Below are positions 1,772 through 41,853 of a stretch of DNA of 41,853 bases, one piece after another. The stretch spans positions 1 through 41,853 of the forward strand of contig NZ_BOLM01000022.1 of assembly GCF_016861605.1 (NCBI RefSeq), in the 5' to 3' direction. Numbering within the stretch: position 1 is the stretch's first letter; each line of letters begins with the position of its first letter. Under the pieces are notes generated by a model, which was not told the DNA's origin, ran no database searches, and worked only from the letters and a program-made list of their open reading frames with translations. The stretch is from Levilactobacillus wangkuiensis (GTDB lineage Bacteria; Bacillota; Bacilli; Lactobacillales; Lactobacillaceae). A program made the translations under genes and the position numbers.

Positions 1772-2595
1772 TGCTTGCCACCCGACTTTCTAACCAGCTT
1801 CACGTAGTCCTTGTTAGCTGAGATGTAACCAACGTCCGTCTTAATCCGGTACACCTTACCGTATTTAACAGCCTTACCATAGATTGTACTTCCCTTGGAG
1901 AAGTGAATACGGCGCTTATTAGCCTTGTCTAAGGCTGGCTTACCATACACGTTAACCTCACTGGTAATCACCTCGTACAGGCCGTTATCAGCCCAGTATG
2001 AGGCTTTCTTAGGCGTTGCCTTGGTAGCCTTACCTGAAAGCTTACCATCAAAATCATGGCTGCAATCCACCCCATGCCCATTCCAATTATCGGTATTTTG
2101 CCAGGCATTGGCGTCGTTTACTCCTGGCCCATAATTATTATAGGCTGCTACCCAGATTGCTTTATCAACTAACTGGTAACGATTAATCCGGCCAGCATTG
2201 AACCAGCTACCTGAACCGTACGTAATCACATTCTTATACCCGTGACTAATCAGGTATCGAAGGAATACGTTAACCTGGCTGGTCGTTGAATAGGGTAAGT
2301 CGGGTGCTTCAACATCAATGGCTAATACCGTGGACTTATCTAAGCCCATTTTCTTCACCCAAGCCAGAAAGTATTGAGCTTCAGCCGTTCCCCGACCATG
2401 GAAGAAATGGTAAACCCCAACGGTATCAAATACTTTGAATCCATTAGCAATCTGGTTACCAGCCTTGGGACTGAGATATCCAGTACCTTCTGTTAGCTTG
2501 ACCATAATCCCATCAGCGCCCCAACCTTTGAGTTGTTTCAGGTAGGCCAGAGAATCAGATTGGTACGATGATAGGTCAACAATTTTCTTAGTCAT
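1768..2595 (-). CDS. lys: Endolysin, GH25 muramidase
   Basis: The N-terminal ~190 residues have GH25 lysozyme features: DLSSYQSD near the start, MVKLTEGTGY, YHFFHG and AIDVEAPD (the catalytic Asp/Glu region), ending with AIWVAAY. It cleaves the glycan strands of host peptidoglycan at the end of infection. The C-terminal ~70 residues (YEVITSEVNVYG... KVYRIKTDVGYISANKDYVKL) look like an SH3-type wall-binding domain. The ATG at 2595, preceded by AAGGGA, is preferred over an upstream in-frame start at 2622 inside the holin gene. There is no signal peptide, so release depends on the holin. Confidence 0.92.
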   Translation of the reverse strand: MTKKIVDLSSYQSDSLAYLKQLKGWGADGIMVKLTEGTGYLSPKAGNQIANGFKVFDTVGVYHFFHGRGTAEAQYFLAWVKKMGLDKSTVLAIDVEAPDLPYSTTSQVNVFLRYLISHGYKNVITYGSGSWFNAGRINRYQLVDKAIWVAAYNNYGPGVNDANAWQNTDNWNGHGVDCSHDFDGKLSGKATKATPKKASYWADNGLYEVITSEVNVYGKPALDKANKRRIHFSKGSTIYGKAVKYGKVYRIKTDVGYISANKDYVKLVRKSGGKQ

Positions 2596-3016
2596 TGCTA
2601 TCAGTCCCTTCTGATGGGGCAATGACCTCCGTTGGTGCCGGGGTAACTACTGGGGCATGATTATCCCCACCGGCTACCTTGTAAGCTTGGTAAGCCTTCT
2701 CAACCAGTCCTGAGATTGTTTGAACATCTAGGTTGAAACCATTGGCCGTTAATTGAGCGTTGACGAAGCGGATTGCTTCCTGCTTCCGGTCAGATAAGGA
2801 TAAGCCAGCCATGACTGCCATTTCTGGGACGATGGTATTAGCCAAGTTTAAGCCAACTTCTAAACCTTGCTTAACGTGAACGTTCTTCTCCGTCTGTACC
2901 TTGTGAGTTAAGAGTGGCTTAACCAACTGGTACACGGCGGGAATTAATACCATTAAGAAGGCAAATACTCCCACATTATTAAGCCAGTTGAACACATCTG
3001 TAATTTCTTTGAACAT
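2588..3016 (-). CDS. hol: Holin, LL-H family
   Basis: This 142-residue protein has an N-terminal hydrophobic segment (VGVFAFLMVLIPAVYQLV), an amphipathic middle and a Pro/Thr-rich acidic tail. The pattern matches the phage LL-H holin family of lactobacilli. It would form membrane lesions that let the endolysin reach the wall. A strong TTAGGAGGA site precedes the ATG, and its stop overlaps the lysin start, giving a classical holin-lysin cassette. Confidence 0.8.
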   Translation of the reverse strand: MFKEITDVFNWLNNVGVFAFLMVLIPAVYQLVKPLLTHKVQTEKNVHVKQGLEVGLNLANTIVPEMAVMAGLSLSDRKQEAIRFVNAQLTANGFNLDVQTISGLVEKAYQAYKVAGGDNHAPVVTPAPTEVIAPSEGTDSND

Positions 3017-3072
3017 AATATTCCTCCTAATTTTGGGTAAATTAAAAGCACTGACTAACTGGCTGAGTGACG

Positions 3073-3240
3073 CTAGTTAGTGGTGCTTGTTGTCGTTGAT
3101 TGAGTTGTTGGTGCTACATATGCTTTGCCAGTGATCTGCTTGTATTGATCGGAATTAATGAATCCATGTTCGACATACCATTCAATATTTGGATATAAGT
3201 AACCGAGTCCGTAGAAAAATGAAATTGTATCAAAGTCCAT
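3073..3240 (-). CDS. XkdX-like small protein
   Basis: This 55-residue protein has the form MDFDTISFFYGLGYL...IEWYVEHGFINSDQYKQITG followed by a Thr/Ser-rich tail. The aromatic start and the pattern W(Y/F)V..G.I....Y..ITG are typical of the XkdX family found between tail-fibre and holin genes in Bacillus and Lactobacillus phages. GGAGGT precedes the start. The function of the family is not established. Confidence 0.75.
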   Translation of the reverse strand: MDFDTISFFYGLGYLYPNIEWYVEHGFINSDQYKQITGKAYVAPTTQSTTTSTTN

Positions 3241-3252
3241 TATGATTACCTC

Positions 3253-3699
3253 CTAATTAGTTGCAGCTGTATCAGTGCTTTTAGCAGCCACTTGTAATTG
3301 CGCCAGTTGGCCACCAATTTTTGCCATTGCCTTATTAGCTTTGTCAACCGTTACTTTTAGCTGTGCTTGGGAACCACCAATTTTAGCGGCCGCCTGAGCG
3401 GTCTGGCCTAGAAGCTTTTTGTATTGAACGTTTTGGTCACTGATGGTGTCAACCTGTTTAAGCACTTGAGTATGCGGGTCATAAGTTACTTCGGCGTCTG
3501 GATCATCCACACACAACATTTGTGGATTACCGTCCGAACCTATGATTTGTTTGCCATTATCATCTAGGGCCGGCGTTTGCTTCATCTTGACCATCTTCCA
3601 ACCGATATATTTGTCTGCCCCGTAGGGCACTGGATCTAAGGCGTACACGGCATAACTGTCCGGCTTATCATCTGCTGCGGTTGCGTAAATTGTTTTCAT
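3253..3699 (-). CDS. Hypothetical protein with coiled-coil C-terminus, downstream of the DGR RT
   Basis: This 148-residue protein begins MKTIYATAADDK. The first ~70 residues resemble small lactobacillus tail-associated proteins (YALDPVPYGADKYIGWKMVKM), and the second half is an Ala/Lys/Gln-rich helix (QTAQAAAKIGGSQAQLKVTVDKANKAM). AAAGGAG supports the ATG at 3699. It overlaps the end of the reverse transcriptase by 32 bp, so the two are probably translated together. It does not look like Avd, the basic four-helix DGR accessory protein. It may be an ordinary baseplate or fibre-assembly protein displaced by DGR insertion. Confidence 0.6.
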   Translation of the reverse strand: MKTIYATAADDKPDSYAVYALDPVPYGADKYIGWKMVKMKQTPALDDNGKQIIGSDGNPQMLCVDDPDAEVTYDPHTQVLKQVDTISDQNVQYKKLLGQTAQAAAKIGGSQAQLKVTVDKANKAMAKIGGQLAQLQVAAKSTDTAATN

Positions 3700-4717
3700 G
3701 CTTGACAATCTCCTTTGCTTTTTTTATCGAACAGTTGGGTTTAACATACTTATGATAGAAGCCATATGAGTTGGTGTGCTTTAGCCAGCCCCAGTAGCTA
3801 ATCATACTGGCCGCATCATGATACGTTAGGCGGTCTTTACGCCCAACTTTGGCGGCCTTCCGACGAATCCGGAGAGCTAAATTACGGCGTAAAGTGACAT
3901 GGTCTCGGTAAAACCGATAGCCCAGAAAGTCAATCGGTCGACTGTCAACTCGAAAAAGCTGCCAGTTAGGCTTGATGACTAGTCCTTCGGATTTAAGATA
4001 GGCATCCATCTGGTCACGGGCTCGATGCAACTTCTTTTTGTTACCACTCAACATGACTAGGTCGTCCATATATCTGACGTAGTACAGTACCCGCCAGTCG
4101 TTTTTTACCTGATGATCAAAATCCTCCAGATAAAAGTTGGCCAGCCATTGCGAAGTATACAACCCTAGTGGTAATCCCGGTGAGTATGAGTCAATAATCG
4201 CCCCCAATAGTCGTAAAACTTGCGGATCTTTAAAACGGTGTTTCAGTTTTAGTTTCAGAATGTCCGTGTTGATTGAAGCGTAAAAGTGGTGAATATCCAT
4301 CTTGAGACAATACTTGGTACGTTTGGGGTCGTTCTGTAACCACTTTGGGATCACCTTGCGCCCCTGAGCCATCCCACGGCCGGGAACGGTGGCCAGATTG
4401 TACTCATACATACTTTTTAAAAAGATTGGTTGCAGCACCAACATAATCGACCAGTGAATAATTTGGTCCGGGAAAAACGGGGTTGTGGTGATTTGACGGT
4501 CCTTGTCCCGATCATGGGTCGTCCATGTTTTGACTTTGGCCGGCTTGAATTCACCCGACAGCAATAAACACTGGATCTGCTGAATCGTTTCTTCTTCATG
4601 GTTGAGTCTTCGGCTCACCGACTTTAGGTGCCGTTTCCCGATGGCCGCCTGGTGCAGTGCTAACTTAATGGTTTCCGGATCTGCAATATCATGGATCAAA
4701 TTACCATAGCGTTTCAA
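3668..4717 (-). CDS. Diversity-generating retroelement reverse transcriptase
   Basis: This is a 349-residue RT of the DGR/group II-like clade. Motif A is KMDIHHFYASI (Asp141). The motif equivalent to QGxxxSP is LGLYTSQ (residues 184-190), the LGxxxSQ form typical of DGR enzymes and linked to their adenine infidelity. The catalytic YMDD is at 216-219. There is no maturase or endonuclease domain, and the length fits DGR RTs. The start is TTG at 4717 after AAGGAAGTGA. It would copy the adjacent TR RNA into cDNA with random bases opposite adenines and feed it into the 3' end of the fibre gene. The 148-nt TR-to-RT spacer is about the size of the spacer reported as required in Bordetella phage BPP-1. 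Confidence 0.93.
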   Translation of the reverse strand: MKRYGNLIHDIADPETIKLALHQAAIGKRHLKSVSRRLNHEEETIQQIQCLLLSGEFKPAKVKTWTTHDRDKDRQITTTPFFPDQIIHWSIMLVLQPIFLKSMYEYNLATVPGRGMAQGRKVIPKWLQNDPKRTKYCLKMDIHHFYASINTDILKLKLKHRFKDPQVLRLLGAIIDSYSPGLPLGLYTSQWLANFYLEDFDHQVKNDWRVLYYVRYMDDLVMLSGNKKKLHRARDQMDAYLKSEGLVIKPNWQLFRVDSRPIDFLGYRFYRDHVTLRRNLALRIRRKAAKVGRKDRLTYHDAASMISYWGWLKHTNSYGFYHKYVKPNCSIKKAKEIVKHENNLRNRSR

Positions 4718-4865
4718 TCAATCACTTCCTTCTGAATTTAAATGACTTATTAACCTCAAGAACTTTCAATTTACTTACTAGCCCCTGCTTTGTAGCGGCG
4801 AATTTTTACCAAGCGGTACGGAGTCGTTGATGCGTTACTTGTGTTTGCCATGTTTCAGTTAATAT

Positions 4866-4963
4866 GGAGGCGAGAGCCGACATCGGAGTTCGCGTTAGTC
4901 GACGAGTTGTTGCCATTCCAGTACCAAAGACCGGAGTTGCCAGCGTCCCAATTCCAGCTGCCT
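4866..4963 (-). repeat. DGR template repeat (TR)
   Basis: This 98-bp non-coding repeat is offset from the VR by exactly 162 bp. Read on the minus strand it would encode a run rich in Asn codons (N at the positions matching residues 846, 851, 858, 860, 861, 865 and 867 of the fibre), the usual AAY bias of DGR templates. The TR has 20 adenines, and 13 of them differ in the VR. No C, G or T of the template differs. The last 24 bp toward the RT side are identical in both copies and would serve as the homing-initiation segment. The TR is probably transcribed with the 148-nt spacer 4718-4865 as a guide/template RNA. Confidence 0.93.
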
Positions 4964-4984
4964 GCATCAACAATCCCAAAAGTC

Positions 4985-5004
4985 CTGGGGGAGAAATCCC
5001 CCAG
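4985..5004 (+). other. GAAA-loop hairpin next to VR (DGR target-recognition cruciform)
   Basis: The palindrome CTGGGGGA-GAAA-TCCCCCAG has a perfect 8-bp stem and a 4-nt loop, 23 bp beyond the VR end and just after the fibre stop codon. DGRs of phage BPP-1 type need a hairpin or cruciform of this size with a GRNA-type tetraloop just downstream of the VR. The GAAA loop appears on the strand opposite the fibre coding strand. There is no T-run on the minus strand, so a terminator role is less likely. Confidence 0.75.
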
Positions 5005-5010
5005 TCCCCC

Positions 5011-7644
5011 TTACAAAGCCTTCTTAAGGAGGCGAGAGCCGACATCGGAGTCCGCGTAAGACGACGAGCCGCTGCCATGCCAGAACCAAAGACCGGAGCG
5101 GCCAGCGTCCCAATCCCAGCCGCCACCAGTGTTGACCACATAGTTACCACTGCCAACAGCACTGCCATAGTCATGATAGTAAGTATTGTATGAAGCACTA
5201 TTGAAAGAAGTTGGCGCCGTTACTCCAGGGTGCTCCTTATCAAATCCAAGGCCAGTAATATTTGTATTATTTGAATCAATTAGTGGATAGTTAACTTTGT
5301 AGTACGGATACGTAAACGTATCCGAAACATACTTGGTTGCGTCATCACACGAGTATAGAGACAAGTTACTAATGTTTAAGCCGTCTGTCCACATTGCCAA
5401 GTTGCCATAGAGATTTTCAATCCCGCGGTAAGTCATTGATCCATAGCCATTACTATGGTTAACGTTGCCGGATGATCCCTTAACACCGTCAGCGGCGCCA
5501 GCAACTTCTGCGCCAGACAGTACGTTATCAGTAACCCCCTTCATAATTGACTGGGAATCGAGAGTAGCGAATTCAATCGTGAACATAACTTGCAAGGCGT
5601 CTAGTGTATGCACGTCCCACAAGTGATAGCCCTTCTTACCATTTGTGTTATTAGCAACTGCTGAACTTCTTAGCTCAACAATGGTTTGGTTAGCTGTTGG
5701 CGTAGCTCCAGTTTTTGACTGTAATTTGCCTGAAACGATCGATCCTTCGTATCGGGAAACATCGACATAGTCTAGCTCTTTATTAGTGTCAAAATCATAG
5801 AAGCAGTTTGGTAGATACCAGTCATCGCCTTGCTTAACCAACGAAACTTGCCAAGTACTTGATGGTTTATTTTGGGTTTTACGGATATAGAATTTTGGTA
5901 CGCGAACAAACGCGTTGCCATACGAATCGGTAACGGTTTTGTCCATTAATCCCCATGGGCCACGAGTATCAAAGTCGTTTTGAGCGCCATTGATACCGGC
6001 TTTTAGACCCACCGCAGCATCGGTCCGCTGTAAGGCCCCAGATGAGGAGCCATTCCAACTAACGCCGTAAATGTTACCGTCTACGGTTGGCAATGGGTCA
6101 CTGACCGTAAAGTAGTCGCTTGACCCGACTGCATTTTCAGCATTAACGCGGAACAAGTAATCGCTTCCAGCTTCAATGCCATCAGTAACCGTCCCAGTAA
6201 GGCTGTCGGGATTTAATGCGACTTTCGTCCAGTCTGTGCCACCTTGCTTTTGATACTCCAGACTGTATCCGGTGATTTCAGAGCCACCATCACTTTTTGG
6301 TGCTATGATCGTGTAGTCGAAGCCTTTTTTGCTAACATCGTACTCAGCCGTCAGTGACGGGATTCCTGGTACCTTCGCCGTTAGACTCCATTTCCATGTG
6401 GTTGTAGTACCGTTATAAGTGAAGCCCCACATCGCCCCGTCTGGACCGATCCCGTAGCCGGTAACTAAGCCGTCAAAATCGCAGAAATATTCTCCAATAA
6501 GCGAATGACCAGTTGGATTATTTTTAGCGTCAATGTCAACTAAGAGCTTGCCGGTATCTTTGGTGCCGATAATTGTTTTCAGTTCGGCATCTACGTCTTC
6601 CCCACTAGCAACCACAAGTTTAGCGGAGCCATCGTCACCAGTTAATTTGTGTTTTTGCCAGTTAGAAGTATCAGTAGTATGGACAACTTTGCTATCGTCA
6701 GCTTTGGTTGCAAGCTGTTGCTGTGTTGCATAATTGCTTAGGTCCACTTGCGTGCCATCTTTACCGGCTGGCCCTTGAGGGCCCTGCGGACCGGTTGCTC
6801 CATCTTTTCCATCCTTACCGGCTGGTCCCTGAATCTGTCCACAATCTTTCCACGCGTTATTCGTCCAGATATACAGTTCTTCGGCAACTAAGTAACCATC
6901 ACCTTCACTTGCTGTTATGGGTAGTTGTGAAGTAGTGTCAACCTTACCTTTAATCTCTAGTCCTTGACCGGTATCCCCTTTTGGGCCTTGAATCCCTTGG
7001 TCACCCTTCGGTCCTTGAGGTCCAGTATCACCTTTTGCTCCAGTATCACCCTTGTCACCCTTGTCACCTTTCGGTCCTTGAATACCTTGTGGACCCTGAA
7101 TTCCTTGTGGACCTTGCAATGTGGAAACTTGGTTAGTTAAGTCAGTCTTAAGCTGGTCGAATTCCTGCTGAAACTCGTCCAAACTCATAACCGGGATAAC
7201 GTCACCAGAATCACTCATAACATTTTCAGTAATTGTGAATCCTTGTGGGTCATCACTTGGGAAGATGGCATTGTACGTAGTCGTTGGGGTAGTAGTATTA
7301 GTAGTTGAACCGTCATCTGTTAAGCCTTCTTGACTACCCGGGGTAATCAGGCTGGATAAGGTCACCCACACTTCAATTGTGTAATCATCGGGTACTAGGG
7401 CATTCATAACCTCAGCATCAACTGGCATGGTAATCAATCCAGCCAATGGTTGCTTAATCGTAGCCATATCAATCGACTTAGTGAATACATAACCGGTGTC
7501 GTTGGCAACCTTTACATCAATTGCTGTGGCATTAGTTAAGTCAAATGCTGAGCCATCTTGGGTAATCGCCAGATTGAAACTGGCTGTGGTATCGAGGTAT
7601 TTTACTTCATTGTTACCATCAGTGAAGTACAGTTCTTTACTCAC
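5011..7644 (-). CDS. DGR-variable receptor-binding tail fibre (BppU-like, collagen repeats, Fn3, lectin fold)
   Basis: This 877-residue fibre is the probable host-recognition protein. GGAGGCG favours the GTG at 7644 over the GTG at 7650. The order is a BppU-type N-terminal domain (residues ~1-100), a short coiled coil, collagen-like Gly-X-Y repeats (QGPKGDKGDKGDTG and similar, ~175-235 and again ~275-300), a chaperone/linker zone, an Fn3-like domain (~430-520), and a C-terminal C-type-lectin/FGE-like domain with YRGIENLYGNLAMWTDG and GGWDWDAGRSGLWFW. The VR covers the last ~33 codons before the six final residues. Residues 844, 846, 851, 856, 858, 860, 861, 864, 865 and 867 (numbered from 7650) differ from the template. 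The conserved Trp and Gly codons lack template adenines and form the fixed scaffold. Confidence 0.9.
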   Translation of the reverse strand: MSKELYFTDGNNEVKYLDTTASFNLAITQDGSAFDLTNATAIDVKVANDTGYVFTKSIDMATIKQPLAGLITMPVDAEVMNALVPDDYTIEVWVTLSSLITPGSQEGLTDDGSTTNTTTPTTTYNAIFPSDDPQGFTITENVMSDSGDVIPVMSLDEFQQEFDQLKTDLTNQVSTLQGPQGIQGPQGIQGPKGDKGDKGDTGAKGDTGPQGPKGDQGIQGPKGDTGQGLEIKGKVDTTSQLPITASEGDGYLVAEELYIWTNNAWKDCGQIQGPAGKDGKDGATGPQGPQGPAGKDGTQVDLSNYATQQQLATKADDSKVVHTTDTSNWQKHKLTGDDGSAKLVVASGEDVDAELKTIIGTKDTGKLLVDIDAKNNPTGHSLIGEYFCDFDGLVTGYGIGPDGAMWGFTYNGTTTTWKWSLTAKVPGIPSLTAEYDVSKKGFDYTIIAPKSDGGSEITGYSLEYQKQGGTDWTKVALNPDSLTGTVTDGIEAGSDYLFRVNAENAVGSSDYFTVSDPLPTVDGNIYGVSWNGSSSGALQRTDAAVGLKAGINGAQNDFDTRGPWGLMDKTVTDSYGNAFVRVPKFYIRKTQNKPSSTWQVSLVKQGDDWYLPNCFYDFDTNKELDYVDVSRYEGSIVSGKLQSKTGATPTANQTIVELRSSAVANNTNGKKGYHLWDVHTLDALQVMFTIEFATLDSQSIMKGVTDNVLSGAEVAGAADGVKGSSGNVNHSNGYGSMTYRGIENLYGNLAMWTDGLNISNLSLYSCDDATKYVSDTFTYPYYKVNYPLIDSNNTNITGLGFDKEHPGVTAPTSFNSASYNTYYHDYGSAVGSGNYVVNTGGGWDWDAGRSGLWFWHGSGSSSYADSDVGSRLLKKAL
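5028..5125 (-). repeat. DGR variable region (VR) of the fibre gene
   Basis: This is the 98-bp 3'-terminal part of the fibre gene matching the TR. Differences on the plus strand are at 5052, 5058, 5061, 5069, 5070, 5072, 5079, 5084, 5099, 5100, 5115, 5121 and 5125. Each is a T in the template, that is, an adenine on the sense strand. Beyond 5125 the two copies diverge at all kinds of bases. The substitutions change ten amino acids, for example Asn to Arg, His, Ser, Gly, Tyr and Asp. Confidence 0.93.
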
Positions 7645-7876
7645 TTGCACCGCCTCCTAGGGCATTCGTGGCTTCAGTTTTCAACCGGGTTAGTACCAAC
7701 TTCTTGAATCCAGCCCACATATCTTCCTTGGTTGACCCAGAGAAGGCTGTAGAAGCTTCATCAGCCGTAGCATCAAAGTTACCGTAGGCTTGGTGATTGG
7801 TACCACTAAAAACGACCGTGTAGGTAACGTGTGTGGTGTTATCGCTGTTCTGCTTGACATCTAAGCTTGTAATCAT
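7637..7876 (-). CDS. Small baseplate-associated hypothetical protein
   Basis: This 79-residue protein (MITSLDVKQNSDNTTHVTYTVVF...) sits between the S74 fibre and the variable fibre, overlapping both by a few bases. It has beta-rich sequence followed by a helix (FKKLVLTRLKTEATNAL). Proteins of this size and place are common in lactobacillus siphophage baseplate operons, but I do not recognise a named family. Confidence 0.7.
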   Translation of the reverse strand: MITSLDVKQNSDNTTHVTYTVVFSGTNHQAYGNFDATADEASTAFSGSTKEDMWAGFKKLVLTRLKTEATNALGGGASE

Positions 7877-8883: not shown

Positions 8884-11474
8884 CCTTCGACCACCTCCTG
8901 ATAAGTCTCACCGTCATCAATGTTGAAAGAAGAATCGTCATCACTAGCACTATCTGAGTCGTCAGTATCATCAGGGATTACCACAGGTTGTTCTACCTCG
9001 GAGTTTTCACCCTCATCTTCAGCAGGATAAGTGACGGCTAAGTCCTTACTATCGTCACGGATACCAATTGGGATTGACCATAATCCAGAGTGACTAATCA
9101 TGACGTTATGCGCAGCGTCTCGGTATTCACTAACATTGAAGCCAATTATTAACTGGTCATGAGCTAAGTCAGGGTATATCCCTTCTGGTTCAAAGTGGCC
9201 ACCGTACTCAATCGGTACAGATAATTGAATATCTTGACTGGGTTCAATCTGGTAATTAAAAATGACTGACTGGGTAATGAGATTGATACACATTACTAGT
9301 CTGTCATCCTTGTTATTGACGTCCCCAGCAGTAAAGAAGGCGTATGGATATGCAATTGAATTGGCTTGAATGGTATTATACTTGCCATTGTTAGCCACAC
9401 CCGAGGGTACAGGGTTCCAACCAAAGTCTTGCAATTTGAATCGGATAGTTGGAAAATAATTTCCAGCTTTCAAGTCGGAAATATTACATACTTCTACAGT
9501 TCCGTCCATCTGACTCCCAATCCATAGACCATTGGTAAGGTCAACGTTAGGCCGGACAAAAGTCTCCATCTCGCACCACTTAGTCACGGTGCTAGACCCA
9601 CTATTAATCACGGCATGAGGCGTGTATGGGAAGGTTGCTAACCAATTCTTTCCCCCGCTCAAATCCTTAATCTGTGAGTAGATGAGGTTGTTGGCTTCAT
9701 CGTAACCAAAGGAAGAACCATGTTGACCGCCTTGTACAATCATTGAATTAAGTAACTTGCCATTAGCGTCCCAATGTAGGTATTGGCAATCACTTACATT
9801 GGACTGATTTTGCTTTCCTTTGTAGGAATAGCTTGCCAGCACCTCACCATTACTCATTTTGTACGAGAATTGCAATGCCCCAACGTGATTATTGCCAAAC
9901 TCATCAGGGTTACCATCAGTGGTCTCCCACAACTTCTTGAAGGTTCCGTCAGGGTTAACCCCGGTGTCTATCCACATTTCTGACTCAGTTTTAACGAAGG
10001 CATCGTCAATTGATACGACTAATGATCCGACAAATGGGGGAGTAATGGTGACTTCATAGCCATCTTTTGAGTGTTGGCTCTCCCAAGTCAGATTATGGGT
10101 ACCGTCTTGTTGGACGTATTCCCAGTTGAAAGCCGCCGCTGATAAGAATGACGTAACATTCTCACCTTCAATGAACAACCTTGCAATGACTCGCTTAGAA
10201 GTATCAGTATTCGTCCATGATTGACCCAGCGGGGTAATTAAGCTGATACTAGCAGCATTTTGGTTCTTTTTGGCGTCTTCAAACAGCTTTTTTACATGGT
10301 CATTCCACCGCTGTTCCATATTTTTGATGAAATTGGGAGTAACGACTGTAACCGTTGAAAATTCCCCAATCACTACCTTATTCTGAGTCGGGTCACTCTC
10401 ACTAGTTGTCCGTTGGATTACTCTGGCTTGCAAAGTTAGTACTGGGGACATTGTCAGGTCGATTACCTTAATGGTATCGCCTAGTTGAGCGTCAAAATCT
10501 GACGTTACATCAACGGAATAATTGACCCGAGGGTGATTGTACAGTCTGAGTGTCTTCAATCCCAGCGATAGTAAGGCATCAGGTTCACTGACAGTTGAAC
10601 TTGTAATACTTCCTTCTAACCAAGTGTTGGCATCATTGTTGTACAGGGCGTTAGCAGAGGCATCAGTGACAAAGTTACGACCACCATTACCCTTAGCTTT
10701 ACTGATTGAAGTATCACCGGAACCATAGACGTACAACTTGGTAATCAAGGTAGTATCAACTGTTTCCCGTTTAATGGACAGCATGTTGTCGCCGTAAGTG
10801 ATACGTCTACCGGTATTCTGTCCCCGTTGGTCGGATAATTCCAAAATGGTATCAACCACAATCCCAGAACTATCTAATTTTACGTACCCATCGGCTTCAC
10901 AATCGTAGGTCGTCAGGATTGTTTGAAGCAAAGTTTGAGAAGAACTCTCACCATCAATGGAAAAGTCTGAAAGTAGTCCAGAAGTTGCATTATCCACCAG
11001 TGTTATCCCTGTACCAGCAACAATCCAGTTCATAGCGGCCGGTAAGGCACACTCTTTAATCTCTTTTTTGGTGGGAATAGTCTTCCCTAATCGCCAGATT
11101 AAGAGGTTAATGGCATCGGCTGAAACAAGGTTAGTTCCAGAGGTGGTATCCATGGTCTCCTCAACGGTATATATCCGGTACACCCGCCAGCGGTCATTCG
11201 CTTGGTCATAAGCCGCTAAGTGATTGCCTACTTTCAGGTATTGAGCCGCTGGACTGTCTGCTACCATGGTGAGACCGGTAAAGGTATCATTCCATGACTT
11301 GCTGTTAGCGTTGGGGTCAGAGGTATTAGCTAGACTGGCTTCGGCAATGCTGTCGTTTGAGCTATTATCATCGGCAAGTTGTTGCTGAATAGTCTCACCC
11401 CAGAAAATATTCGTATCAGTTGACGTATCTAAGGTGGCGACTCGTTTGAGGTTTTTATCAAGAATGACGTACAC
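8880..11474 (-). CDS. tal: Tail-associated protein (prophage tail endopeptidase/Tal type)
   Basis: This 864-residue protein starts at GTG after AAGGAG. The N-terminal ~350 residues (MYVILDKNLKRVATLDT, then the DANSKSWNDTFTG and VYTVEET-type region) match the phage minor structural/tail endopeptidase fold that forms the gp27-like hub at the tail tip. The C-terminal half is a beta-rich extension, ending in an acidic Asp/Ser/Glu tail (PDDTDDSDSASDDDSS). It follows Dit and precedes the fibres, the standard baseplate order. Confidence 0.82.
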   Translation of the reverse strand: MYVILDKNLKRVATLDTSTDTNIFWGETIQQQLADDNSSNDSIAEASLANTSDPNANSKSWNDTFTGLTMVADSPAAQYLKVGNHLAAYDQANDRWRVYRIYTVEETMDTTSGTNLVSADAINLLIWRLGKTIPTKKEIKECALPAAMNWIVAGTGITLVDNATSGLLSDFSIDGESSSQTLLQTILTTYDCEADGYVKLDSSGIVVDTILELSDQRGQNTGRRITYGDNMLSIKRETVDTTLITKLYVYGSGDTSISKAKGNGGRNFVTDASANALYNNDANTWLEGSITSSTVSEPDALLSLGLKTLRLYNHPRVNYSVDVTSDFDAQLGDTIKVIDLTMSPVLTLQARVIQRTTSESDPTQNKVVIGEFSTVTVVTPNFIKNMEQRWNDHVKKLFEDAKKNQNAASISLITPLGQSWTNTDTSKRVIARLFIEGENVTSFLSAAAFNWEYVQQDGTHNLTWESQHSKDGYEVTITPPFVGSLVVSIDDAFVKTESEMWIDTGVNPDGTFKKLWETTDGNPDEFGNNHVGALQFSYKMSNGEVLASYSYKGKQNQSNVSDCQYLHWDANGKLLNSMIVQGGQHGSSFGYDEANNLIYSQIKDLSGGKNWLATFPYTPHAVINSGSSTVTKWCEMETFVRPNVDLTNGLWIGSQMDGTVEVCNISDLKAGNYFPTIRFKLQDFGWNPVPSGVANNGKYNTIQANSIAYPYAFFTAGDVNNKDDRLVMCINLITQSVIFNYQIEPSQDIQLSVPIEYGGHFEPEGIYPDLAHDQLIIGFNVSEYRDAAHNVMISHSGLWSIPIGIRDDSKDLAVTYPAEDEGENSEVEQPVVIPDDTDDSDSASDDDSSFNIDDGETYQEVVEG

Positions 11475-20782: not shown

Positions 20783-22015
20783 TTACTTACCAGGTGTGGT
20801 TGTAGAACCTGCTGCAAAGTTCGCTGGTTGGTCAGCAATCGCCGCAAACGAACCCGCAACAAAAGCTTCGGTATCCGTTGGTTCAACGTCAAACCGATCA
20901 ATCACACGAATCTTAGTTTGATCGGTTTCAAAGGCTCCGCCACCGATGTTTGTCGTCAGCAAGGACATGTTTTCCCGATCAAACAACGTCACAGCTTGTG
21001 ATAGATCACCGTAATACAGTGGGTAAACTGGTGCCGAAGCCGTACCAGTGTTTGGCAACCACTTGTCGGCCACTTCGACAATTCGCTTTCCACGAATTAA
21101 ATAACGATCGGGTTGTGTTGGGTCTGGTTGCAATAAGTAACGGCCCATTGCGTCCTTAACTTCTGACAGCACGTTAAACCCGGACGTGTTCGTCATTAAG
21201 ACTGAAGTAGACTTGATAGCTGGATCAACGGCCGTGTTGATCATCGTAATGATGTCATCAAACTTAGCTAAGGTCGGCTTCTTTGGCGCCTTGTTCATTA
21301 CTTCAATGATCTTAGCGTTGCGAGTAACTACAACCTTCTTGGCAATCCATTGTGATAGCCAAGCCATGATGTTGTCCGCCGTATCCTTTAATAAGGAGTT
21401 CGTCACCGTGCTAATTCCGGCGTAACGATGAATAGCGTACTTGATCAGCGTCAAGTTCGGATCATCATTGTCACCGATTTTAGCCGTTTCATCATCTAAG
21501 TCAGCCAACGGAGTAACGTCCGTCCACTTTTCCCAAACCCGTGACCCGGTCGGTGTTGAAACAGCTTCTCGCTTAACGTATTGTTGCAAAGAATCGTATT
21601 GACGAACTAACGTATTAATCGCAGTTTGAATATCTTGAGGGATCGTCAGCCCAATTGCATTACCCGATTCGTCAGTAGACGATGTGATCAAGTTCATAAC
21701 CTTGGGATCACCCTTAATCATGCCTTGGAAGTTCTTAATGAACTCATCTTTGATGTCTTTTTCTTTATCATCAAGTGGAGTCTTGTCCTTATCATCCATA
21801 TTGGCAATCTCTTGTGCCTTACGTTCTTCTTCCAATTGTGTGTGTAAAGCGTCACGACGAGCAACCGCGTTATCCCGTTCTGCAGTCATGTTTTTGAATT
21901 CTTCTTGGTTAAATTTATCATCTAAAACGGCAGCATTAAGCTTGTCATTTAGATCTGATACCTTTTGCCCTTGGGCAATCCAGGCATCGTTTAAGTCATT
22001 AATATTCGTAGCCAT
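20783..22015 (-). CDS. Major capsid protein, HK97 fold
   Basis: This 410-residue protein has an N-terminal coiled-coil delta domain (residues ~1-110, rich in Glu/Lys/Gln) followed by the HK97 core (PQDIQTAINTLVRQYDSLQQYV, then VLMTNTSGFNVL and DPTQPDRYLIRGKRI). The delta domain would be removed by the protease encoded just upstream. TAATG overlap with the protease stop couples the two. Confidence 0.93.
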   Translation of the reverse strand: MATNINDLNDAWIAQGQKVSDLNDKLNAAVLDDKFNQEEFKNMTAERDNAVARRDALHTQLEEERKAQEIANMDDKDKTPLDDKEKDIKDEFIKNFQGMIKGDPKVMNLITSSTDESGNAIGLTIPQDIQTAINTLVRQYDSLQQYVKREAVSTPTGSRVWEKWTDVTPLADLDDETAKIGDNDDPNLTLIKYAIHRYAGISTVTNSLLKDTADNIMAWLSQWIAKKVVVTRNAKIIEVMNKAPKKPTLAKFDDIITMINTAVDPAIKSTSVLMTNTSGFNVLSEVKDAMGRYLLQPDPTQPDRYLIRGKRIVEVADKWLPNTGTASAPVYPLYYGDLSQAVTLFDRENMSLLTTNIGGGAFETDQTKIRVIDRFDVEPTDTEAFVAGSFAAIADQPANFAAGSTTTPGK

Positions 22016-22740
22016 TAGTTGGCCTCCTCTTTATTTTTCCCCATCAAAATATCCAACTTGCTTTGCATTAGTGCATTAGCAGGTTGGCTTTCTTTAGGTT
22101 GTGTAAGTTTGGGTTGTGACTTGGAAATTAGGTTCATAAATTTGTTAATTGCCGTCTTGGAAGGAATCTCTGAAATTGAATTAGTGAATTGAGGTTGCTT
22201 GTCATCGACAAACATAATCTCGTCAGCGAAACCTTTATCCACTGCATCTTGTGCCGTCATCCAAGTCTCGTTTGCCATCAATTGCAGCACATCATCAGCG
22301 GCCATACCGGTCTTAGCAACATACGCTGCAACAATGGACTGATCAATGCTATCTAACACATTCGATTCATGCGACAGGTCATCCGCGTTGCCTTGGACGC
22401 CTGACCATGCCTTATGAATCATAATTTGTGCTGTGGGTGAGATAGAGACTTTGTCGCCAGCCATCGCAATCACACTAGCAGCACTAGCAGCTAAGCCTTG
22501 CACATTAACCGTGACATTTCCCTGATAATTTTTTAGCATCGTGTAAATTTCACTAGCAGCGAACACATCGCCACCGTTAGACGCAATGTCAACTTCTACA
22601 TCATCATTAGGCCCCACACTATCTAACACATCAGACACGCTGGCTGGTGATACCGCTGGCATACCGAAAAAATGATAGAATGCCGCTGTTTCATTGTCGA
22701 CCACGTCACCTTTAATCATTACCTTCTTCGTTGTTGTCAC
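22015..22740 (-). CDS. ClpP-type prohead protease
   Basis: This 241-residue S14 peptidase has the ClpP-like core: DIASNGGDVFAASEIY, the nucleophile motif GLAASAASVIAM (Ser86) and MIHKAW (His109). It cleaves the capsid delta domain and scaffold during head maturation. The C-terminal ~45 residues are low-complexity and may be scaffold-like. It overlaps the portal gene by 29 bp, which is standard in this module. Confidence 0.92.
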   Translation of the reverse strand: MTTTKKVMIKGDVVDNETAAFYHFFGMPAVSPASVSDVLDSVGPNDDVEVDIASNGGDVFAASEIYTMLKNYQGNVTVNVQGLAASAASVIAMAGDKVSISPTAQIMIHKAWSGVQGNADDLSHESNVLDSIDQSIVAAYVAKTGMAADDVLQLMANETWMTAQDAVDKGFADEIMFVDDKQPQFTNSISEIPSKTAINKFMNLISKSQPKLTQPKESQPANALMQSKLDILMGKNKEEAN

Positions 22741-38010: not shown

Positions 38011-38103
38011 ATGAGTGGTTGACATTAAGACGGATATATTTAGTTCTTTTCAAAGAACTTGTTTAAATGTAGAATGAAATCATTCAGAAAGGAGGGAGCG
38101 CTA

Positions 38104-39006
38104 ATGGCACAGTATGATTTTACTATTCATTACGATGGTGACGGATTGGCAAACAACAGAATACCAATTCGCGATTTAGCCCCCTCTTTGCTTGCAGTAT
38201 CAACAGCGTTTCAGGAAATACAAAAGCTGAATGATCCCCTTGAAGAACCGGTTTCTTTAGATATTAAGGCAAGTGAGCCAGGATCATTCATTGTTGATTT
38301 AGTATTAGCAAATGGTGGGGATTTTATTCAAAAAGCCGTTTCCTTAATAAATAGTTCCAATTCTAATGCACTGTTAAACCTAAAAGATTATGTTTTAATT
38401 TTTGTCGGAGTGATAACATTCATTACCGGAACTGCACATCATAAGCTAAAAAATAAAAAAGATAATGACGATGGTACAGTAGAAATAACAATAGACGATA
38501 ATACTAAAATTACAATCTCAAAAAAAGTGTTAGACGCTTACCAGAATGTCGAAGTTAGAAAAAGCATTAAAGATGCTGTAAAGCCTTTATCAAAAGATGG
38601 TATAGAATCAATTGACTTTTACCATGATAATCACGACAAAGTAACTGTGAGAAAAGCTGATTATCCTCTTTTTAATGTTCCTGATGCTGGTGAAAAAGAA
38701 ATTAACATTAGTGAAGAAGACACCTTTCTGCAAATTATTAGTGTAGCGTTCGAACATGGAAAATGGCAGTTTTCTTCCGGTGGTAACCGGTTCTTCGCTA
38801 AAATTGAAGATAAAAATTTCCTGAACGATGTTGAGAAAAATTTTCAACAGTTTGGCTCAACCGATGTTTTAAAGGTGCGCTTGCGGACACGCCAATATAT
38901 TGATAAAACAGGTCTACTTAAAAGTGAATATACGATTCTGCATGTATTAGATCATCAGCGAGGCGGTCAACAAATCGAATTGAATTTCACGGATACAGAA
39001 GTCTAG
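38104..39006 (+). CDS. Unrecognised lysogeny-region protein with one membrane segment
   Basis: This 300-residue protein begins MAQYDFTIHYDGDGL. AGGAGGG at a good distance favours 38104. The first ~110 residues are soluble, with SLLAVSTAFQEIQKLND. One membrane segment (YVLIFVGVITFITGT) follows near residues 105-120. Then comes an acidic and beta-rich C-terminal half (TVEITIDDNTKITISKKVLDAY ... LKVRLRTRQYIDKTGLLKSEY). It is expressed beside cI and is a candidate lysogenic-conversion or superinfection-exclusion gene. It occupies the place usual for an integrase but has no integrase motifs. Confidence 0.7.
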   Translation: MAQYDFTIHYDGDGLANNRIPIRDLAPSLLAVSTAFQEIQKLNDPLEEPVSLDIKASEPGSFIVDLVLANGGDFIQKAVSLINSSNSNALLNLKDYVLIFVGVITFITGTAHHKLKNKKDNDDGTVEITIDDNTKITISKKVLDAYQNVEVRKSIKDAVKPLSKDGIESIDFYHDNHDKVTVRKADYPLFNVPDAGEKEINISEEDTFLQIISVAFEHGKWQFSSGGNRFFAKIEDKNFLNDVEKNFQQFGSTDVLKVRLRTRQYIDKTGLLKSEYTILHVLDHQRGGQQIELNFTDTEV

Positions 39007-39282: not shown

Positions 39283-40689
39283 CTATTCAGCGTAATTAGC
39301 GTTACCGTTAACGTTGGTAGTAGTAACGTTACCCTTAACAGGTGAAGGAGTGAAGACGGCCTTTAAAGTAGTACCGAACTTAACGCCCTGGTTGGCCTTA
39401 GTCGTAGCCCCAGAATTGTAAGTGTAGCGGATGTAGTAGTTGTCGCCAGCCTTGATATAAGTACCAGTGATGTCCGCACTAGCAACCTTTTGAGTTGAAG
39501 TGAACGTCTTGCCATTCTTGCCACCAAATAAGCCATCAAGAACAGTACCTGGAACTACATTACCAGCATCGCCTTGTAACGTTTCTTGCTGAGTAGCACC
39601 AAGAGTTGGGAAACCACCTTGGATATCAGTAGCAGCTAACTTAGTTCCCGCAGCAATACCATCAGCAGATGGAGTGTAGAAGGAAACCTTCGAAGTTGCA
39701 ACAGCAGCTACACGAACAGTTAAAGTACCGCCAAACTTAGCTTGTGGAATGCTAACAGCGGTTGGAGCCATTGCATAACTATCAAACCCGTAGCCCGTTG
39801 GAACATTCTTCACAGCAAAGTTAACTAAGTTTTGGCTGTCATGAACTTTACTGATCAACTCGTCCTTCTTAGTACCGGCTACACTAGTCGTGTAAGTAGC
39901 GGTACCAAGAGAGTTACTGTTCGAGTTCAATACGTAGTGAACAGTGATGGAGTTGTCAGCCGTAGCAGCATCAGCAGACTTAGTGAAGCTTAAGCCACCC
40001 ATGTCTTGGTTAGCGTCAGTGACGTTAGCTTGGTAACCCTTGCCAGCGTAAATCCAGCCAGAGATGGATGAGTCCTTAGTGTCAGTTACGTGGTAGTACA
40101 AAGAACCTTCCTTAGTCTTGGTAGCGGCCTTGTCAACCGTGAATGGATCAGTCTTGGAAGCACCGTAAAGGCTAACCTTCTTGGCATTGATATCGGTGTT
40201 CTTAGGAGCAGTCCAAAGAGTGTTCTTTGAAGCATCCTTCAAGTAGTAACCGGTAGTACGTGCTGGGGTAGCAGCAGCAGTCGTAGTTTCAGCAGCTTTG
40301 ATACCACCAGCAACAGTGGCAGTCTTACCTACGTAAACGTAACCACGGTACTTCTTGTCCATAGTAACGATCTTGTAGTATACGGAACCACGGTTAGTGG
40401 TCTTAGTACCATATGCGTAGAAAGTGTCGCTAGACTTCTTAGAAGCAGCTAACTTAGCAACAGTTGCCTTAGAAGCAACAACCTTGGCACCCTTAACAGT
40501 ACCTGGCTTTGAGTAAATGGCATTAGTACCAGTTACAGTAACATTTTGACTCTTATCTGCAAGAGCGGTGTAAGCACCGGCAGTTGCATAGCTCTTAGCA
40601 CTTGCAGTAGTGGTAGTAACAGCTGAAAGACCAGCTAAACCTAACACTGCAGCGCCTACATAAATAGACTTTGCGAATGATGAACGCAT
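39283..40689 (-). CDS. slp: S-layer protein precursor, L. brevis Slp family
   Basis: This 468-residue precursor has a signal peptide (KSIYVGAAVLGLAGLSAV, cleavage after ASA at ~31) and a mature start KSYATAGAYTAL. The N-terminal half has SH3-like repeats with Tyr/Lys (NRGSVYYKIVTMDKKYRGYVYVG; SLYYHVTD...GWIYAGKGY) that bind wall polymers in this family. The Thr/Ala/Val-rich C-terminal half is the self-assembly part. Length and sequence resemble the L. brevis S-layer proteins I recall (465 residues for SlpA). AGGAGG precedes the ATG. S-layers are possible phage receptors. Confidence 0.9.
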   Translation of the reverse strand: MRSSFAKSIYVGAAVLGLAGLSAVTTTTASAKSYATAGAYTALADKSQNVTVTGTNAIYSKPGTVKGAKVVASKATVAKLAASKKSSDTFYAYGTKTTNRGSVYYKIVTMDKKYRGYVYVGKTATVAGGIKAAETTTAAATPARTTGYYLKDASKNTLWTAPKNTDINAKKVSLYGASKTDPFTVDKAATKTKEGSLYYHVTDTKDSSISGWIYAGKGYQANVTDANQDMGGLSFTKSADAATADNSITVHYVLNSNSNSLGTATYTTSVAGTKKDELISKVHDSQNLVNFAVKNVPTGYGFDSYAMAPTAVSIPQAKFGGTLTVRVAAVATSKVSFYTPSADGIAAGTKLAATDIQGGFPTLGATQQETLQGDAGNVVPGTVLDGLFGGKNGKTFTSTQKVASADITGTYIKAGDNYYIRYTYNSGATTKANQGVKFGTTLKAVFTPSPVKGNVTTTNVNGNANYAE

Positions 40690-40987: not shown

Positions 40988-41168
40988 AATCTTCAAAGAA
41001 GGAAGAATAAAAACCAACTTTAAAGAAATCACTTCAAGTATAATAGCTTATAATTCCAGTAAAGTCAAACTAATTTTTGCCTTTTTAGGGCTAGTTTTGA
41101 AATTGACCAGACTAGATTTAATATGTTAATATTCAATTGTTCTTCTATGAGATAGTCTGAACGTGCAT

Positions 41169-41210
41169 AAAATATGGATAGCTAATCGTAGGCTATCCAT
41201 ATTTTATTTT
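41169..41210 (+). terminator. Strong bidirectional terminator
   Basis: A 14-bp stem (41169-41182 with 41192-41205) with a 9-nt loop is followed by ATTTTTT. It ends in A and T runs on both sides. No gene is obvious directly upstream in the window. Confidence 0.75.
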
Positions 41211-41214
41211 TTAA

Positions 41215-41333
41215 TTGCTACAATAATTTATAGATGCTATGATGTAAAAGTTCCAATCATTCGGAACGTCCTCATCTTTAGAAAAGCCACTCAAAGTTAC
41301 CCTCAGTACACAACTTCCTTGGTGGCTTTTTTT
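41215..41333 (+). ncRNA. Candidate small RNA with own promoter and terminator
   Basis: TTGCTA (41215-41220) and TATGAT (41238-41243) are 17 bp apart. About 80 nt follow without a convincing coding start, containing the hairpin GTTCC/GGAAC near 41250-41267, and end in the terminator stem AAAAGCCAC/GTGGCTTTT (41282-41290 with 41322-41330) plus T-run. This is an orphan transcription unit by sequence only. Confidence 0.35.
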
Positions 41334-41406
41334 GATTATTTACATTTTTCTAAAAGTGAACTATCATTTTTAGGATAACAAATAAAGTTTCATCCATTCA
41401 TTTACT

Positions 41407-41445
41407 AAAAAGAGGCTTCCAGCATAATACCGGATACCTCTTTTT
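41407..41445. terminator. Bidirectional terminator
   Basis: AAAAAGAGG (41407-41415) pairs with CCTCTTTTT (41437-41445), giving T-runs in both directions. It is a possible end of the minus-strand gene coming from the right edge. The rest of 41446-41621 shows nothing recognisable. Confidence 0.65.
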
Positions 41446-41621
41446 AGTATACCAATTTTTACTTTACATAAGGCGGCTTATCCCAAGTAACCCACATTCA
41501 CCGCGGTACTTCCACATTCCGTTCTTTTTTGATTGTGAACTTGTCCAAAAAAGAAGTGGTATAGGTCGCAGATTGGCTTTAATTGGGGAAAGGTACTTTG
41601 TGAAATTCACTGAAATCATGT

Positions 41622-41852
41622 CTAGACCATTCCCTTGAATTCAACTGTCTCATTCTTTATATTAACCAAAAACTTACCGACATTTCCCTGATATTTAACG
41701 GATACTTTAAAGGAATACTTATAATTTACACGAGTATATCGAATACTACTAATTCTCCCCCGATACCCTTGCTTATGCAAAACTCTCTTCACTTGGTTCC
41801 TTTGTCGATCAGTAATTCTTGCAGAACTCCGATAGATTGTCTTCTTAACGAT
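41622..41852 (-). CDS. C-terminal part of an unknown basic protein, cut by the window edge
   Basis: A minus-strand frame is open from the right edge for 76 codons (KKTIYRSSARITDRQRNQVKRVLHK ... SFKVSVKYQGNVGKFLVNIKNETVEFKGMV) and ends in TAG. Alternating hydrophobic and charged residues suggest beta strands. The start lies outside the window and no family is recognised. Confidence 0.55.
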   Translation of the reverse strand: MVKKTIYRSSARITDRQRNQVKRVLHKQGYRGRISSIRYTRVNYKYSFKVSVKYQGNVGKFLVNIKNETVEFKGMV

Positions 41853-41853
41853 C

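Follow-up and report, generated by a model that had tools for sequence, protein, structure and literature searches.

The closest well-described relative of the locus reported here is the diversity-generating retroelement (DGR) of phage BPP-1 (NC_005357), with the order mtd-avd-TR-brt. The 437 nt between its variable repeat (VR) and template repeat (TR) hold the accessory gene avd (387 nt), and its spacer RNA belongs to the Phage_DGR family. Avd is described as essential to retrohoming in two papers (PMC10053308, PMC12875486). In BPP-1-type phages the hairpin has a GRNA loop and a stem that is free in sequence, according to PMC3240598. One gut DGR without an accessory gene is mentioned in PMC4159848, so that earlier work has noted Avd-less DGRs, at least in passing. 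A literature search for phrases on Avd-less DGRs returned nothing relevant, and a prior description may still exist. For diversity-generating retroelement together with Lactobacillus, neither term stands in any title among the matches listed, and by term count 'reverse transcriptase' and 'diversity-generating' are absent from two L. brevis phage papers (PMC6805780, PMC6563214).

The window, the whole stretch of 41,853 nucleotides from Levilactobacillus wangkuiensis analysed here, carries a real DGR, confirmed beyond the evidence on which the original prediction was made. It is of a distinct, apparently Avd-less type with an RT-18 RNA, and this type is coherent in reverse transcriptase (RT) branch, RNA, hairpin and spacing. 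The target is a tail fibre gene (5011..7650, minus strand) whose 879-aa product combines collagen-like and fn3 parts with a C-terminal domain that is lectin-like. This gene carries the VR (5028-5125, minus strand) at its 3' end, and the TR (4866-4963, minus strand) lies between the fibre and RT genes, with a VR-TR gap of 62 nt and a TR-RT gap of 145-148 nt. The pair is the longest direct repeat in 2500-7000 (100 nt, 87% identity) in a search without adenine preference, and no second TR/VR place is found in the 56 contigs (3.14 Mb) of the assembly, of which the window is contig 22. In the 98-nt core, all 13 TR/VR mismatches fall at the 20 TR adenines (hypergeometric P = 1.4e-11). One of them is the outermost 5' base, which may fall outside the homologous block; without it the count is 12/12. 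Translation of the two repeats gives 10 fibre residues that differ between the TR and VR readings. The original prediction had named the 98-bp TR with its matching VR at the fibre gene 3' end, the 13 mismatches confined to 20 template adenines and ten changed residues in a lectin-like tip, and our recount returns the same coordinates and numbers. Its interval for the element, 3668-5125, encloses a real cassette but cuts off the fibre gene, which continues to 7650. The predicted structure of the tip takes the expected lectin-like fold and matches that of TaqVP, a known DGR target protein, although the model is weak within the VR. The target gene thus has a VR-bearing 3' end and a target domain modelled with a C-type-lectin fold. 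FGE-like fold rows (VIA-align) carry no evidence on function. Two small reading frames of the region were discarded. The ORF at 4806-5198 (minus strand), considered as a hidden accessory protein, is an out-of-frame reading of VR and TR with no Pfam match. For a 26-codon frame in the TR-RT spacer, L003 has ACG at the position of the ATG, and the stretch is RT-18 RNA.

Comparison of the VRs of related phages, a check of the kind proposed with the original prediction, bears out the adenine pattern. RT searches yield relatives both in named genomes and in viral contigs. An RT 94-95% identical to that of the window is carried by L002 from Lentilactobacillus rapi, by L003 from Levilactobacillus angrenensis and by the viral contig L011. 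In the six pairwise comparisons among these three and the window, four phages in all, the VRs differ at 74/120 shared TR-adenine comparisons and at only 3/444 other shared bases, and the three non-adenine differences are a single L002 base, the last of the VR, counted in three pairs. The fibre upstream of the VR differs at 53-102 of 380-400 nt per pair. The VR is therefore more variable at adenines and more conserved elsewhere than its own gene, and repeated copying from the TR explains both. Transfer in the other direction, from VR to TR, was considered as well: the TRs are polymorphic at eight sites, of which four have adenine in most of the four phages, too small a number to argue for or against it. 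The TR/VR mismatches in the window and the VR differences among the four phages thus both concentrate at TR adenines.

The same architecture recurs more widely. A TR/VR pair is found at 48 of the 52 RT loci surveyed, a set that includes near-copies and gives 42 distinct TR/VR pairs. All 48 share the order VR, TR, spacer, RT; no pair is found in L009, L014, L030 and L046. L012, L013 and L048, copies of L003, L002 and L004, were left out. Over the 48 loci the VR-TR spacing is 62-175 nt and the TR-RT spacing 107-218 nt. Some relatives show mismatches at other bases, with only 6/8 at adenine in L053 and 11/13 in L022. The pooled 610/628 mismatches at adenine over the 42 distinct pairs are not counted as evidence because the finder penalised other mismatches, and the same bias affects the per-locus counts in the 52-locus survey, the survey of Avd-type loci and the comparison of L097 and L109. 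In L041, a second adenine-only repeat pair (17/17, with the finder biased to adenine) lies at 9159-10081, outside the first TR/VR, and is perhaps a second template and target; the repeat survey that gave it showed only pairs with more than 80% of mismatches at adenine.

The RT gene (3668-4717, minus strand) adjoins the TR and encodes 349 aa from a TTG start preceded by GAAGGAAG. The frame is open and holds the YMDD motif and LGLYTSQ, as expected from the predicted YMDD and LGxxxSQ, and ends in a basic C-terminal tail. The motif [IVL]GxxxSQ is a mark of DGR RTs, and the enzyme is of the DGR type. Its Pfam match is RVT_1 (E 5e-17), and against PHROG 1423 'Reverse transcriptase' it scores 345 bits. 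The best-matching solved structure is 8ub7, a 328-residue RT which we take to be the BPP-1 bRT, with 90 bits; the next has 51. In searches the RT of the window groups with the RTs of BPP-1 and of Avd-type loci. A tree of 57 rows, which has no non-DGR outgroup and omits nine loci taken as near-copies, places the 12 Avd-type RTs, BPP-1 among them, on one side of a branch with support 99/98 and every row of the RT-18 group on the opposite side. L010 and L068 are short in this tree, and BPP-1 and others are long branches. The RT-18 side includes L. brevis phage LBR48 and L065, which has an RNA score under the cut-off yet is placed in the RT-18 group. L045, with neither an Avd nor an RNA hit, sits next to, just outside, the Avd group. 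The RT-18 label needs five changes on the tree because rows without a hit are interspersed. RT-18-type RTs extend past the bRT end into a basic tail (KP..IKKAKEIV in the window); tails are present also in some Avd-type RTs, and the basic tail may take the place of Avd. At the active site, NIDD replaces YxDD in 4/57 RTs (L054, L055, L056 and L061, the last being LBR48), and at three of these four loci the TR/VR mismatches are at adenine only (7/7, 8/8 and 13/13, with the finder biased to adenine).

Between TR and RT lies a structured RNA of Rfam family RF03021, RT-18 (4743-4818, minus strand), with 52.3 bits against a gathering score of 41.3. It is the sole family passing in this stretch of the window, where Phage_DGR (RF03022) does not pass. 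The name RT-18 conveys only a location beside a reverse transcriptase. The Rfam RT motifs reportedly come from a 2017 paper on structured RNAs, and our literature search found no paper on 'RT-18 RNA'. The RNA lies just upstream of the RT in 38/45 relatives (13/14, 17/17 and 8/14 by batch; near-copies included) and is absent above the gathering score in 7/45; one relative, L030, has just 79 nt before its RT. In an alignment of 28 RNAs the structure pairs 79.9% of cells, compared with 31-44% when it is slid. In the long helix each of the seven pairs changes on both sides, as do three of four in the first hairpin; helix 2 of the model is poorly kept (41.9% paired). Among the 17 bAvd loci above the cut-off RT-18 is found in none. 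Eleven of these 17 have an RT in the fetched stretch, and RT-14 RNA occurs in 9/11. In L066 and L068-L075, Avd-type loci of other Bacillota, RT-14 lies between avd and RT, and it is likely the spacer RNA of the Avd-type class.

A hairpin is located behind the VR, 21 nt before the TR (4985..5004, minus strand). It has an 8-bp, G-rich stem (CTGGGGGA/TCCCCCAG) and a TTTC loop, with a DNA fold z of -2.34. Such a stem within 70 nt of the VR is found in 32/40 loci (eight loci taken as near-copies omitted) versus 0.05 expected from shuffles, and the G-rich 5' arm recurs. A 4-nt GRNA loop on the sense strand is seen in 0/41 top-ranked hairpins of this group (near-copies included) and in 8/9 Avd-type loci. 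The TTTC loop of the window is on the sense strand and reads GAAA on the other strand. In the window this one hairpin may, we speculate, serve both as VR landmark and as template edge.

No Avd is recognized. The Pfam model bAvd recovers BPP-1 Avd at E 2e-37 as a positive control, and at E 0.001 it matches in 0/23 genomes or records with this RT type (the own genome and 22 others, several of the latter being fragments) and in 0/397 Lactobacillaceae genomes, 8 of them RT-bearing. The best bAvd match in the own genome, at E 0.06, fails this cut-off. In 348 Bacillota genomes bAvd matches 30, 17 of them above the curated cut-off, and RT-18 RNA matches 3, 2 above cut-off and the own genome included, a number that may be an undercount since the RT-18 scan used stricter filters. 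The two sets of genomes do not overlap. A second Avd model, PF05635, is uninformative; it fails to find BPP-1 itself. Ten of the 12 Avd-type loci examined, BPP-1 included, have a TR/VR pair, and their VR-TR gap is 437-481 nt. The short gap of the window leaves no room for an avd of BPP-1 size. HRDC and other accessories are judged only from the lack of space and the absence of a shared gene. The reading that we consider very probable is a DGR that likely rewrites the fibre 3' end from a nearby RNA template, with changes at template adenines, in an RT group with no Avd found in these searches and mostly with RT-18 spacers.

An unrelated helper could stand in for Avd, which we regard as a possible but rather unlikely arrangement. 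Its best candidate is a 148-aa ORF (3253..3699, minus strand) whose first 32 nt overlap the end of the RT gene, which makes joint translation possible. The ORF, which has no Pfam family, has a match in 10/397 Lactobacillaceae genomes, and these are 7/8 of the RT-bearing genomes, one of which has it on a contig other than that of the RT, and 3/389 of the others. Against such a role, the ORF family is present in just 10/52 loci and is not lineage-wide, and it persists where the cassette is lost. Most loci share no family except RT and fibre, though divergent small proteins may be missed, and among ten ORFs that follow an RT only one passes the Pfam cut-off, a phage tail assembly chaperone.

The carrier has a ParA gene (316-1104). 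A scan that covered the larger ORFs, except 22015-22740, and few of the small ones finds no integrase family. Positions 1-1324 and 41163-41853 are collinear with two circular plasmids, one of 42.5 kb from Levilactobacillus suantsaii and one of 43.8 kb from L. brevis, and the window ends lie ~480 nt apart in the L. suantsaii plasmid; the contig has no exact terminal overlap. The ParA gene, the lack of a found integrase and the plasmid collinearity together point to a probable phage-plasmid. The RT is not seen in the fetched stretch of either plasmid; one retains only the N-terminal part of the fibre and the other has a different C-terminal part. A 42.7-kb Apilactobacillus plasmid carries a DGR, its pair read as L053 (same RT coordinates), with 6/8 mismatches at adenine. 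Elsewhere in the window, 38059-39006 (plus strand) matches the PADLOC candidate defence family PDC-S42 at E 2e-71, and a 468-aa ORF at 39283-40689 (minus strand) matches nothing in PHROG, Pfam or PADLOC at E 0.001.

Loss of the cassette in relatives bears on whether the element still works. Genome G317, from the same genus, gives no hit for such an RT at E 0.001, and its phage L097 tracks the window at 89-92% but lacks the part that corresponds to window 3728-5009. L109, a 42.6-kb viral contig, holds the same stretch as L097. In both, what is left of the RT gene, its last codons, comes almost directly after the fibre stop and leads into the 148-aa ORF; the hairpin, TR, RT-18 RNA and most of the RT gene are absent, and an orphan VR remains. 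The residual RT codons indicate a deletion rather than an empty site, and the loss in L109 means that the cassette is not needed for persistence. In LBR48 (L061), a single repeat at 526-668 can be aligned with the VR side of L055 as well as with its TR side, and the first 900 nt of the record show no other copy; comparison of the repeats suggests that one was lost, probably by VR-TR recombination. With a cassette lost in one related phage and one repeat lost in another, the element of the window might be a former DGR, inactive now, its VR pattern being a record of past rewriting. We find this improbable, as the RT frame is open with YMDD and the TR, RNA and hairpin are retained. Measured against its own TR, the VR of the window also shows no non-adenine change. 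In the RT-less sister, by contrast, the orphan VR has three that no TR of four relatives explains; the four RT-bearing phages have one change in ~300 non-adenine sites (P 0.025, small numbers). The deleted sister phage and the repeat loss in LBR48 serve as natural controls.

That there is no DGR, and that a group II intron, retron or defence RT lies beside a chance repeat, can be dismissed. The RT does have a group II intron RT as its best NCBIfam family, and defence RTs appear in the PADLOC list, but the NCBIfam match has 87.8 bits against a cut-off of 300, 0/8 listed NCBIfam families reach their own cut-off, the 328-residue 8ub7 leads the solved structures by 90 bits to 51, and the adenine pattern and compact order recur in relatives. 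We take the four-phage comparison to refute such a reading.

For an active DGR working with RT and spacer RNA, the following course can be proposed. The stretch from TR into the RT gene would be transcribed, and the RT-18 spacer RNA would fold behind the template, where the RT would bind it, possibly via its basic C-terminal tail. The RT would then copy the TR to cDNA, misreading adenines. The cDNA would replace the VR, presumably guided by the GC-rich end common to TR and VR and by the G-stem hairpin behind the VR. A face of the lectin-like fibre tip would change in this way, which may affect host binding. Both retrohoming and its working without a helper are inferred. Spacer RNA family, hairpin loop, RT branch and presence of Avd change together, for which we propose at least two mechanistic classes of DGR. 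In the wider form of this proposal, to which we give about even credence, RT-18 is the template-spacer RNA of a whole Avd-independent phage DGR lineage, and RT and RNA form a two-part machine in which the spacer RNA and the basic tail do the job of Avd. The lineage bears the mark of recurrent rewriting, and neither its cassette nor the genome nor the host-family genomes sampled contain a recognisable Avd; it thus becomes testable whether such DGRs function without an Avd helper. If the RT works alone, the DGR machinery would be smaller than that of BPP-1, and comparison of the two would show the purpose of Avd. The proposal also offers a role for RT-18, an Rfam family so far named only for its place, and the same reasoning applies to RT-14.

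Among known systems, LBR48 of L. brevis resembles the window in its RT (52% identical), its RT-18 RNA and a fibre stretch 86% identical; it differs in having NIDD instead of YMDD and one repeat only. The Avd-type DGRs of Bacillota (L066, L068-L075) also have a spacer RNA between TR and RT, but they carry bAvd, RT-14 and mostly GRNA loops. The DGR of Treponema denticola, as described in PMC4891356, is a DGR with an accessory other than Avd, an HRDC gene; there the gene stands between TR and RT, whereas here that space is 145-148 nt with the RT-18 RNA. With the BPP-1 DGR the locus shares an RT, a TR, a VR at the fibre gene 3' end, adenine-directed mismatches, a hairpin behind the VR, a structured spacer RNA and a lectin-like target fold. 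It departs from BPP-1 in having no Avd found, a VR-TR gap of 62 nt rather than 437 nt, RT-18 in place of Phage_DGR RNA, a TTTC rather than a GAAA loop, and an RT on another branch. The original prediction had likened its adenine-only signature to BPP-1; the adenine pattern stands, and the BPP-1 type is rejected because Avd, spacer RNA, hairpin loop and RT branch all differ.
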